This document shows positions 29,753 to 35,069 of a stretch of 35,069 bases of DNA, piece by piece. This stretch comes from Chloroflexota bacterium. GTDB taxonomy: Bacteria > Chloroflexota > Limnocylindria > Limnocylindrales > CSP1-4. The notes under the pieces were generated by a model. It saw only the letters and a list, made by a program, of their open reading frames with translations, was not told the origin of the DNA and did no database searches. The DNA is taken from contig PMXR01000027.1 in NCBI GenBank assembly GCA_003171035.1, positions 41,040-76,108 of the forward strand, read 5' to 3'. The translations under genes and the position numbers were made by a program. Each line of letters starts with the position of its first letter. Positions within the stretch are counted from its first letter, which is position 1.

Positions 29753-29988
29753 CCCCGCCCCTCCGCGCAAGACCGCCGACCAGGCGGTCGCCCGGCTTCC
29801 GGGCCGACCAGTGGGCGACGGATCGGAAGCCGCCCCATTCGCAGCCCGTATTCAGAAGATCTCACCGGATGCGAGGCCTGCTTCGAATCCGGGGACACAA
29901 GGGATTGACAGATGTGGTGTTGCCCGCAGCATGAAGCGAGCGCACGGCATCCGGCGGGCCAGACGGGCGCTATCGGAGGAGTGGAACC

Positions 29989-30207: not shown

Positions 30208-30896
30208 GACGGTCGGCCTTCGGAGGGGGACGTCGAGGTCGACCGCCGCGAGTGACTCTTGCAGTGGGTCCCTCTGCACTGACGCCGCGTCTTGACGGCG
30301 GTGATACCCGGCAACACCACGACCCAATTGACCCCAGTTAAGGCCAGTAAGGCGGAACTGCCTCCGTCTACCAGAGAACCGGGTCGTCGCCGTCCGGCCC
30401 GGGCCGTCGGGCGCAGTGAACGAAACGGGGACGCCGGCCATCGTATTGGTCATGGAGCGAGCGATTGGCAGAACGGCCTTGACGTTACGGAGGGAATCGG
30501 TGGCCATCGAGCCGAACGACGAACGGACCCGACGGTCCGGACCGCGCCGACGGCGCAGCTGCTCGCGGAGGCCGTCGGCCGCGCCCCGGCGCGAGTCTCG
30601 GTCAGGGTTGAGGGATCTTGTGGACCACCAAGGCCCGCGCTCACGCGTTCGCGGCGGCCGTGCCGGCATAGTTCAAGGCATCTGTTGGATATGGTCGGGG
30701 CGAGAGTGTCGGGGCGAGAGGACTAGAGGCTTCGCTTTCGAACTGACCTATGTGATGGCGCTGGCTGCCGGGCCGGTAGTCGAGGTGGCGTAGTCAACGC
30801 CGACGGGAGTCGAGGCCGAGATAACGAGCTAGCCGCCCCGGGAGGTCGACGTTTCGCCCTGGGCGACTCAACTCTCGGGTTGTTGGTCGGGCGTCC
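30208..30896. other. gene-poor region, no convincing gene
   Basis: Several open frames exist, but they are Arg-rich and lack start signals or family sequence. The only structure I see is one copy of the 72-bp direct repeat (30635-30706), followed by a second copy of GTCGGGGCGAGAG. Confidence 0.5.
30635..30706 (-). repeat. 72-bp direct repeat, copy A, with tRNA-Pro-like 3' end
   Basis: It matches copy B (32332-32403) at 67 of 72 bases in the same orientation. Read on the minus strand it begins CTCTCGCCCCGACCA, which resembles the 3' end of a tRNA-Pro (T-stem end, acceptor CGCCCCG, discriminator A, CCA). CTCTCGCCCCGAC is repeated in tandem just beside it. No tRNA body is attached. Confidence 0.75.
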
Positions 30897-32041
30897 CTAC
30901 CCCGCGTTGAAGATTTTCGCGGATATGCCTTCAAGGATCGTCTGTACGGCCGCGCTGTACTGGTTACTCAGGATGATGACCGTGACAGCGTCGACTGGGT
31001 AGCGCGCCTCAATCGATGCGAAGCCCGAGATAGCACCGTCATGCCAGATGATCGGCCGTCCGGAGTCGGTCCCGATCACGAAGCCATAACCGTAGCCGGC
31101 TGCCATCGTCCCATACTGGGGGGCGAACATCTCGGCGCGGGACGCCGCGGGCAGGAGCGCATCCGTCGTGAGCGCCTGCTCCCATCGGTTCATATCCTCG
31201 ACCGTGGAATATAGGCCGCCGGCCGCGAATGGGACCGACGGGTCTATTGGCACGGCCGGCGTCGCAGAATATCCATTCGTATACCCAATCGCCACACCGT
31301 TCGAGTTGTGGTCATAGCCGGTGTCGCTCAGATTCAGAGGCGTGAAGATGTACTTCTGCAGGAATGCCTCGTAGCTCATGCCGGAGACCTGCTCGATGAT
31401 GTAGCCCAGCAGGATGTAGCCGGAGTTGCTGTACGCCCAGGTCGTGCCGGGCGCGAAGTCCAGCGGTAGATCCCGAAAGTGGGCGATGATCTGCAGGGGA
31501 GTCGAGGGCTGGCCTTCGTAATCGACGAAGTCGGGCTGCGCCAGATAGTCGGGGATGCCGGACGTGTGCGTCAGGAGCTCCTTGATCGTGATGACACCCC
31601 AGGCAGTCGGACATTGGGGGATGTAAGTGCAGATGAGGTCGGTGACCTTGAGCTTGCCCTGAACCTGGAGCAGCAGGATGGCCGCAGCCGTGAACTGCTT
31701 GGTGTTGGAGCCGATAAGAAACCTGGTCTGCGGGCCGTTGGGGGTCTTCTGGTCGCGGTCGGCAAAGCCGTAGCCTTGCTCAGGAGCACGTGTCCATGTT
31801 GGGCGATCAGCACCGAGCCGCTGAACAGCGACTGCGAAGTCATGTTGGCGAGCATGGCGTCGACGGCCGAAATGGCGTCCGGCGAGATGGCGGTCGACGA
31901 CGGCGAGCTTCCGATCGAAGGCGCGACGCTGGTGGCTGAGGAGGCCGAACTCGGCGTCACCTTTGGCGGAGCCGCCGGGGAGCAAGCGGAGACGATCAGG
32001 AAGATCCCGCAGATTGCCAGCAGTGCACGTTGATGTCGCAT
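30897..32041 (-). pseudogene. serine-hydrolase (beta-lactamase/DD-peptidase-like) lipoprotein, frameshifted
   Basis: A class C beta-lactamase-family serine hydrolase whose frame breaks once. The N-terminal piece starts at ATG 32041 with GAGGGGAG 6 bases upstream. It has a lipoprotein signal peptide (AICGIFLIVSAC) and reads on to FSGSVLIAQHGHVLLSK. The rest is in another frame from about 31773 and begins GYGFADRDQKTPNGPQTRFL. The catalytic SNTK (S-x-x-K), the YSNSGY (Y-x-N) motif and the C-terminal WHDGAISGF are all intact. Restoring one G at about 31773-31776 would join both parts into a normal ~380-residue enzyme. It is either a recent pseudogene or a sequencing error. It lies between the two 72-bp direct repeats. 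Confidence 0.88.
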
Positions 32042-32307
32042 TGGGCACTCCCCTCGAGGACGGACGGCGAAGTAAGTTCGCCACGACACGCGACGGGGCT
32101 CGTTGGAGCCCGACTCCAGGTCCGCGCAGCCGGTCCGCGTGGTGTGAGCGGCCTACAAGCACCCTGTCATCATTGCCCCGCCAGGTAGACTCGCGGTTCG
32201 GCGTCGCGGTTCGGTCCGCTCTTCACCGGTCTCCGAATTGACCTGGACCAGGTATTGAGCCGACTGGGACGCGAGCTGGTCGTCCGGAGGGGGCGAGCAT
32301 ATCGATT

Positions 32308-32329
32308 GGCGACCGATAGGCGACCGATA
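32308..32329. repeat. tandem 11-bp duplication
   Basis: GGCGACCGATA occurs twice without a gap, directly next to repeat copy B. Such a short duplication may mark an insertion or recombination junction. Confidence 0.7.
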
Positions 32330-32331
32330 GG

Positions 32332-32403
32332 CCGCGCACACGCGTTCGCGGCGGCCGTGCCGGCGCAGTTCACGGCATTTGTTGGATATGGTCGGGGCGA
32401 GAG
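32332..32403 (-). repeat. 72-bp direct repeat, copy B, with tRNA-Pro-like 3' end
   Basis: The partner of 30635-30706, about 1.7 kb away and in the same orientation. The minus-strand reading again begins CTCTCGCCCCGACCA and continues with TATCCAACA. The two copies flank the serine-hydrolase pseudogene. Confidence 0.75.
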
Positions 32404-32665
32404 GAGCCAAACCGACCGTACGGCCTGAATGTCCCACTCGCGCTTGCGTGCGAGGTTGATGGCATGGTGCGGTGGCTGGACCAGGTCCAGTAAGGCCGGC
32501 GACTCGCGGCGGTCGCTCGGCCAGCGGCCAGCCGAGGAACGCGGTCGCACCGGCCGGGCCATCAGGCGCAAGTGCGCCGCAATCGCTTGACAGGGGCCCT
32601 CGCACCTGCCATGAAAGACAACTAGTTTCCATTGTGAAGAAAGTAGCGGCTAGGGGGAGAGAAGA

Positions 32666-34851: not shown

Positions 34852-35069
34852 ATGACTTGCGACACGCCGGCGTCCGCACGGCCATCAGCGCGCAGCAGCA
34901 CTGGGGCGATCGAGGCCACACCGTCCCCGCCGAGCGCGGTGCTTGCCGTGGATGCCCATGGGCTGGTGAAGACCTTTGGCACGACTCGCGCCGTCGACGG
35001 CATCGATCTAGCTGTGCGTGAAGGCGAGATCCTCGGTGTGCTTGGACCAAACGGCGCGGGCAAGACCAC
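34852..35069 (+). CDS. DrrA-like ABC exporter ATPase (3' partial)
   Basis: The first 72 codons of an ABC ATPase cut by the window end. After a Ser/Pro-rich N-terminal extension of about 35 residues comes [20 protein letters not shown], then [15 protein letters not shown], which is the Walker A motif of the DrrA/CcmA class. GGAG lies 8 bases upstream of the ATG. In this family it powers a two-gene drug or lipid exporter with a DrrB-type permease, which would follow downstream. It is divergent from the TetR gene. Confidence 0.88.

Follow-up and report, generated by a model that had tools for sequence, protein, structure and literature searches.

A probable large-serine-recombinase-derived cassette bounded by tRNA-Pro 3′-end cores in a Chloroflexota bacterium

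Stacked cassettes and tRNA-anchored islands

In the staphylococci, composite SCC islands consist of cassettes with serine recombinases (CcrAB or CcrC) stacked at the 3′ end of rlmH, with tandem att repeats and including elements that lack a recombinase. Integrons and CALIN are same-orientation arrays of small, mostly integrase-less cassettes based on IntI and attC, and their cargo includes toxin-antitoxin modules. Insertion into tRNA genes by serine integrases has been described as rare, with phage phiRSM1 in tRNA-Ser and the AICEs of Mycobacterium in tRNA-Leu as examples (PMC3218068). In a further account, the additive flexible genomic islands of Methylopumilus are marked by repeated copies of the terminal 20 bp of tRNA-Lys, and the tycheposons are of the tyrosine recombinase type (PMC10872708).

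The locus described here lies in a window, the whole stretch of DNA analysed (35,069 nucleotides), from a Chloroflexota bacterium. As in phiRSM1 and the AICEs, a serine recombinase would insert at a tRNA gene and restore its 3′ end; here, however, the clade of large serine recombinases (LSRs) is common to phages and chromosomes and is associated with long, mostly LSR-less cassette arrays at tRNA-Pro. The likeness to SCC extends to large serine recombinases, tandem att sites, loss of the recombinase and cargo stacked at one gene end, but the target is tRNA-Pro or tRNA-Arg rather than the 3′ end of rlmH with ccr, the LSRs belong to a different, phage-borne clade, the units are much smaller and the arm types far more numerous. 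One-orientation, mostly integrase-less arrays with toxin-antitoxin cargo are shared with integrons and CALIN, whereas the site is here a tRNA 3′ end with dyad half-sites and the enzyme a serine recombinase, not IntI acting at attC; that these are not integron arrays was judged by the lack of any tyrosine recombinase gene near a core in this genome and by the LSR-adjoining dyad half-sites. Recurring copies of a tRNA 3′ end and variable cargo are likewise features of the additive islands, and our arrays, as repeated tRNA-end-marked insertions with variable cargo, fall within that purely descriptive category; in the accessible part of its account the recombinase and half-sites are not assigned, whereas here an LSR and an attP/attL/attR logic can be identified (PMC10872708). 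Tycheposons, too, are tRNA-anchored cargo islands, but the recombinase here is of the serine type, with no tyrosine recombinase beside the tRNA repeats in this genome. Among the titles and abstracts listed in literature searches, none described this Chloroflexota cassette-array system. What appears to be new, judging from the literature searched, is the combination of tRNA-end cores, stacked serine-recombinase cassettes and their scale in this lineage, the separate parts being known.

The repeat pair and the cassette it bounds

Two 72-bp direct repeats on the same strand, copy A (30635-30706) and copy B (32332-32403), are spaced 1697 bp apart and match at 67 of 72 bases; their consensus occurs exactly twice in the window and in none of 100 shuffles. 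The preliminary description had the position, orientation and identity of this pair right, as well as a tandem partial duplicate at copy A, where the tRNA end is doubled with a period of 14 (30694-30720), and an 11-bp tandem repeat beside copy B (32303-32332; 2.7 copies by TRF). It had also called for a genome search for an intact tRNA-Pro sharing the 3′ end, and one exists: on the minus strand the repeat ends in CTCTCGCCCCGACCA, the 3′ end of an intact tRNA-Pro(CGG) in the same genome (C126:6631-6707), and copy B, ending in TCCTCTCGCCCCGACCA, reproduces the 3′ end of that gene exactly. The tRNA-Pro-like end it recognized is thus real, but the tRNA-derived portion comprises only the outer terminal 15-17 bp; the other ~57 bp match the 3′ end of LSR genes. 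Translated on the plus strand, copy B gives AHAFAAAVPAQFTAFVGYGRGER, similar to the C-terminus of an LSR that ends at the same core in contig C114; copy A has a stop codon within the LSR reading frame. No tRNA was found in the window and no working integrase is present, as had been claimed; the further statement that no integrase remains is not quite right, because this LSR gene end persists. An integron attC reading, suggested by the resemblance of the arm's GTTGGAT to the GTTRRRY core site, was dropped, the arm being an LSR gene end.

Read in the tRNA direction, each core has a tail arm ('a') on its left and a head arm ('b') on its right. By this convention the window cassette measures 1,683 bp from core to core, with a head of family b2 at copy B and a tail of family a6 at copy A. 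The core at copy B (32389-32405, minus strand) is an exact tRNA-Pro 3′ end. It lies between the tail arm a1 of the preceding cassette (32406-32460, minus strand; a family of 21 sites) and the window cassette's own b2 head arm (32328-32388, plus strand), which matches LSR 3′ ends over the last ~57-62 nt of the gene. Adjoining the latter is a segment we term X2 (32267-32318), 87% identical to L136:2938-2988, the continuation of a segment X1 in LSR-bearing relatives. The cargo is a serine hydrolase gene of the beta-lactamase fold with a lipoprotein-type start (30897-32041, minus strand; PF00144, E=5e-64). Relative to an intact gene that is 89% identical (G003:C123), it has lost one base in a G run near 31785, a frameshift that may be biological or an assembly error; in G003 the gene is also reversed relative to the b2 arm as compared with the window. 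The cassette closes with its a6 tail (30723-30760, minus strand), of a family shared with b2/LSR elements in G003:C90 and G009:C201, and the core at copy A, a tRNA-Pro 3′ end doubled with a 14-bp period (30692-30722, minus strand). Then follows the b2 head arm of the next cassette (30630-30691, plus strand), which again comprises the final ~57-62 nt of an LSR gene, contains an in-frame stop and matches LSR 3′ ends in L169, L170, L171 and L178. This is joined to X1 (30523-30625), part of an LSR-linked region, ~81% identical to L136:2985-3101, which lies upstream of an LSR gene and is there contiguous with the X2 homologue. As separate observations, X1 is repeated across the genus, homologues of its ~100 bp turning up at numerous locations, some of them close to LSR genes, and the doubled core TCCTCTCGCCCCGACACTCTCGCCCCGACCA recurs identically in three species, each time at a junction whose arms differ from those of the others (window 30692-30722, L176 ~1486 and L206 ~637), which would require an explanation if the duplications were independent.

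Between 25070 and 29829 the window is 93-97% identical to, and mostly collinear with, G002:C19. Homology ends at 29829, and the island runs from this synteny break to the contig end (29830-35069). As the sequence to the left of 29829 is chromosome shared with G002, copy A lies near the island edge. The preliminary description had proposed looking for an empty site in relatives; G002 supplies this left chromosomal boundary, but no relative has the exact site minus the window cassette. The island, on contig C17, which ends at 35069, is likely linked to the tRNA gene on C126, the two being separate contigs in the assembly.

The b2/a6 pair bounding the window cassette also bounds a 6.8-kb LSR-bearing element (G003:C90) and, in G009:C201, a cassette that retains a remnant of an LSR. 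The window cassette thus has the tRNA-Pro cores in direct orientation, the head arm formed by an LSR gene 3′ end and the attP pair of arms that mark this family, although its own dyad matches at 8 of 22 positions, which is moderate only. What it lacks is an intact LSR: about 60 nt of the gene are left at each copy, and this marks it as a derivative rather than an autonomous member. In both copies the LSR match stops 57-62 nt from the core and passes into X1 or X2, which in G012 adjoin each other upstream of an LSR but are here separated between copies A and B, so that the window cassette and the next unit both look like deletion derivatives. LSR-less units in relatives keep about 20, 60 or 147 nt of the b2 arm and others hundreds of nt. 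We accordingly rejected a fixed functional arm length of 57 nt; this varying retention makes the b2 arms of LSR-less units look like deletion remnants.

Core arrays, recombinases and half-sites

The following counts rest on searches and on fetched stretches of contigs. The 17-mer core is present in the genome in 15 exact and four one-mismatch copies (19 in total), compared with none at up to one mismatch for a backwards control pattern. It is found in all 21 genomes of the genus, most of which have five or more copies, and in many other genera of the family. On the fetched contigs, 84 of 87 pairs of neighboring cores share a strand; the units that the cores mark off measure 0.2-13 kb, with a median of 2.7 kb. 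Arm families combine freely across junctions. A full LSR is present in eight of 85 cassettes and a partial one in 15; the other 62 are without any. Four species share one short integrase-less cassette at 92-96% identity, while the flanking 2.5 kb are almost without homology. The sampled cassettes carry accessory cargo, namely transporters, dehydrogenases, TetR regulators, a two-component system, arginase, peroxidase and toxin-antitoxin genes. Those of the toxin-antitoxin type include YoeB with Phd/YefM, HipA, PIN and ParE (L030 435-6229; L114 1699-2115; L115 2718-3008). Scattered repeats unlinked to insertion, which in the preliminary description would have spoken against integration, were not what we found, since the core copies sit at insertion junctions. 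Its option of a dispersed repeat family survives in the sense that the 17-bp core is indeed also dispersed, because the window element is one unit of a lineage-wide cassette-array system.

An LSR gene or remnant runs convergently into the core on the head side at 41 of 127 distinct sites, about 15 of which abut an intact-looking tRNA-Pro. These core-adjoining LSRs combine the domains PF00239 and PF07508 and share the motif W-x-REST-x-GQ in an alignment; where the same genomes encode LSRs of a different catalytic motif, none of these adjoins the core. Core-type LSRs occur in 39 of the 81 genomes of the family, and their named matches are nearly all from Chloroflexi MAGs. They are also present on 28 IMG/VR contigs, with a terminase on six of the 13 tested. 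Six tyrosine-recombinase genes were found in the genome, none of them near a core, and the closest on a core-bearing contig is 22 kb off. On this sequence evidence, the predicted integrating enzyme is a phage-type large serine recombinase. The site-specific integration at a tRNA-Pro 3′ end that the preliminary description had surmised is accordingly supported by the identity of the core, the LSR ends and the paired arms, and its notion of a remnant or passenger that lacks a functional integrase by the ~60 nt of LSR that remain. The serine-recombinase identity of the enzyme, the integrase-derived bulk of the repeat and the lineage-wide array system lay outside what it had foreseen. Two further observations concern elements elsewhere. 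In a sister clade of LSRs, the gene ends at a tRNA-Arg gene (CCG, CCT or TCT anticodon) rather than at tRNA-Pro (L240-L257, L283). Additionally, C114 carries a tandem pair of apparently complete LSR elements (L032 2710-15893, equal to G000:C114:38725 to 51908, and on to C114:60946), one of 13.2 kb (b4/a2) followed by one of about 9.0 kb (b3/a7); they adjoin a tRNA-Pro(GGG)-like sequence that ARAGORN did not call, perhaps owing to its odd D-arm region.

Were elements to enter by LSR recombination, the attP of a circle (a-core-b) should be a dyad, and its two halves should come to lie at opposite ends of one element after insertion. On the viral contigs the two arms beside the core are indeed complementary (0.629 vs 0.467 permuted, 0/3000), with a single center between core bases 2 and 3. 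At 139 chromosomal junctions the arms show no match (0.283 vs 0.281), as expected if the two arms there come from different elements. Paired within one cassette, in contrast, head and tail match at the same center (0.404 vs 0.316, 0/5000; 51 non-b1 cassettes), and b4 heads pair with a2 tails in eight of nine cases; a strict redundancy filter leaves 28 cassettes, on which the test weakens to 64/5000. The short cassette common to four species lends independent support. The b2 arm has no match in the viral contigs.

The b1 heads constitute the commonest class. Beyond the core they begin with TTCRGGTAGGT, a stretch of 11 nt that is conserved across 51 sites of the genus and family, L027:2930 and L029:1130 among them, with nothing conserved further, and all 34 b1 cassettes are without an LSR. 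The conserved stretch is often followed by an inverted CCTACC. Such sites are nearly absent from viral contigs, with one match. A b1 head as the dyad partner of its own tail was rejected, there being a signal at no center, and the best-explaining model therefore does not cover this class.

Proposed serial insertion and competing readings

We favor, at roughly 85%, the reading that the window unit is a non-autonomous or decayed member of an LSR-integrated family that would use the tRNA-Pro 3′ end as its attB. A circular element would carry an attP composed of tail arm, core and head arm, the last being the 3′ end of its LSR gene, and recombination some two bases inside the 17-bp core, the putative crossover dinucleotide, would give rise to the order tRNA-core-b ... 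a-core-flank. Because every element supplies the tRNA end anew, insertion would restore the tRNA and rebuild attB, the next element would enter in front, and arrays of a-core-b junctions in one orientation would accumulate. Such serial insertion would explain the single orientation, the free mixing of arms at junctions and the fixed pairing within elements. Later loss of LSR genes would leave cassettes that retain their cargo: the b2/a6 element of the window would have lost all but the last ~60 nt of its LSR and kept the serine hydrolase gene, and the copy A arm would be the head of the next, likewise LSR-less, element near the island edge.

How much of such an array might still be active divides two further accounts. 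The island could be a fossil, now immobile: the debris of former serine-integrase elements or prophages that deletion and homologous recombination between cores have rearranged. This would accommodate the LSR remnants ending both arms in the same break region, the division of X1 and X2 between the copies, and a hydrolase gene that is frameshifted and reversed relative to the b2 arm in G003; however, the frameshift could be an assembly error, head and tail pairing is preserved and identical cassettes recur in different contexts, and we hold this account to be a substantial prospect at less than even odds. Conversely, integrase-less cassettes whose att sites are compact (about 30 nt of tail, 17 nt of core and 11 nt of head) may constitute a functional, integron-like system that resident or phage LSRs move in trans, the window unit being one such cassette. 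We regard this as rather unlikely: it draws on the prevalence of LSR-less cassettes (62 of 85, and 34 of 34 for b1), on b1 conservation that ceases after 11 nt over 51 sites, on the short integrase-less cassette common to four species in differing contexts and on accessory cargo including toxin-antitoxin genes, but the b1 sites have neither an assigned LSR nor a dyad, and the b2 arms of LSR-less units vary in length (about 20, 60 or 147 nt) as deletion remnants would.

Accounts that dispense with a serine recombinase fare far worse. Repeats of tRNA 3′ ends are the usual footprint of tyrosine integrases, as stated in the accessible part of one source (PMC4383910), which would suggest a classical genomic island or a tycheposon-type island at tRNA-Pro; but with the genome's six tyrosine recombinases away from the cores (22 kb at the closest) and an LSR as the recombinase gene that runs into the core, we deem this very improbable. 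A dispersed tRNA-derived repeat family spreading without site-specific integration would account for the many core copies per genome, but is contradicted by the 84:3 orientation bias, the pairing of arms within units, the adjacency of LSRs and the attP sites in phages, to the point of being scarcely credible.

Returning to the LSR-integrated family, a more speculative extension, which we put forward tentatively, is that it includes a serine-integrase counterpart of the integron. Here, resident or phage LSRs, possibly active at present, would acquire and shuffle integrase-less cassettes, chiefly of the b1 class (with an att site of ~58 nt), in tRNA-Pro arrays across this Chloroflexota family, toxin-antitoxin cargo included. 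More generally, an LSR clade at tRNA-Pro, with a sister clade at tRNA-Arg, would have left its remains as accessory-gene arrays across numerous species in a lineage that has been little studied, offering a concrete and testable route of modular gene gain outside integrons. The tRNA-end core with its arms would serve as a simple marker for such islands in metagenomes, and the arrays would be a source of natural attP/attB sets for one serine-integrase clade.
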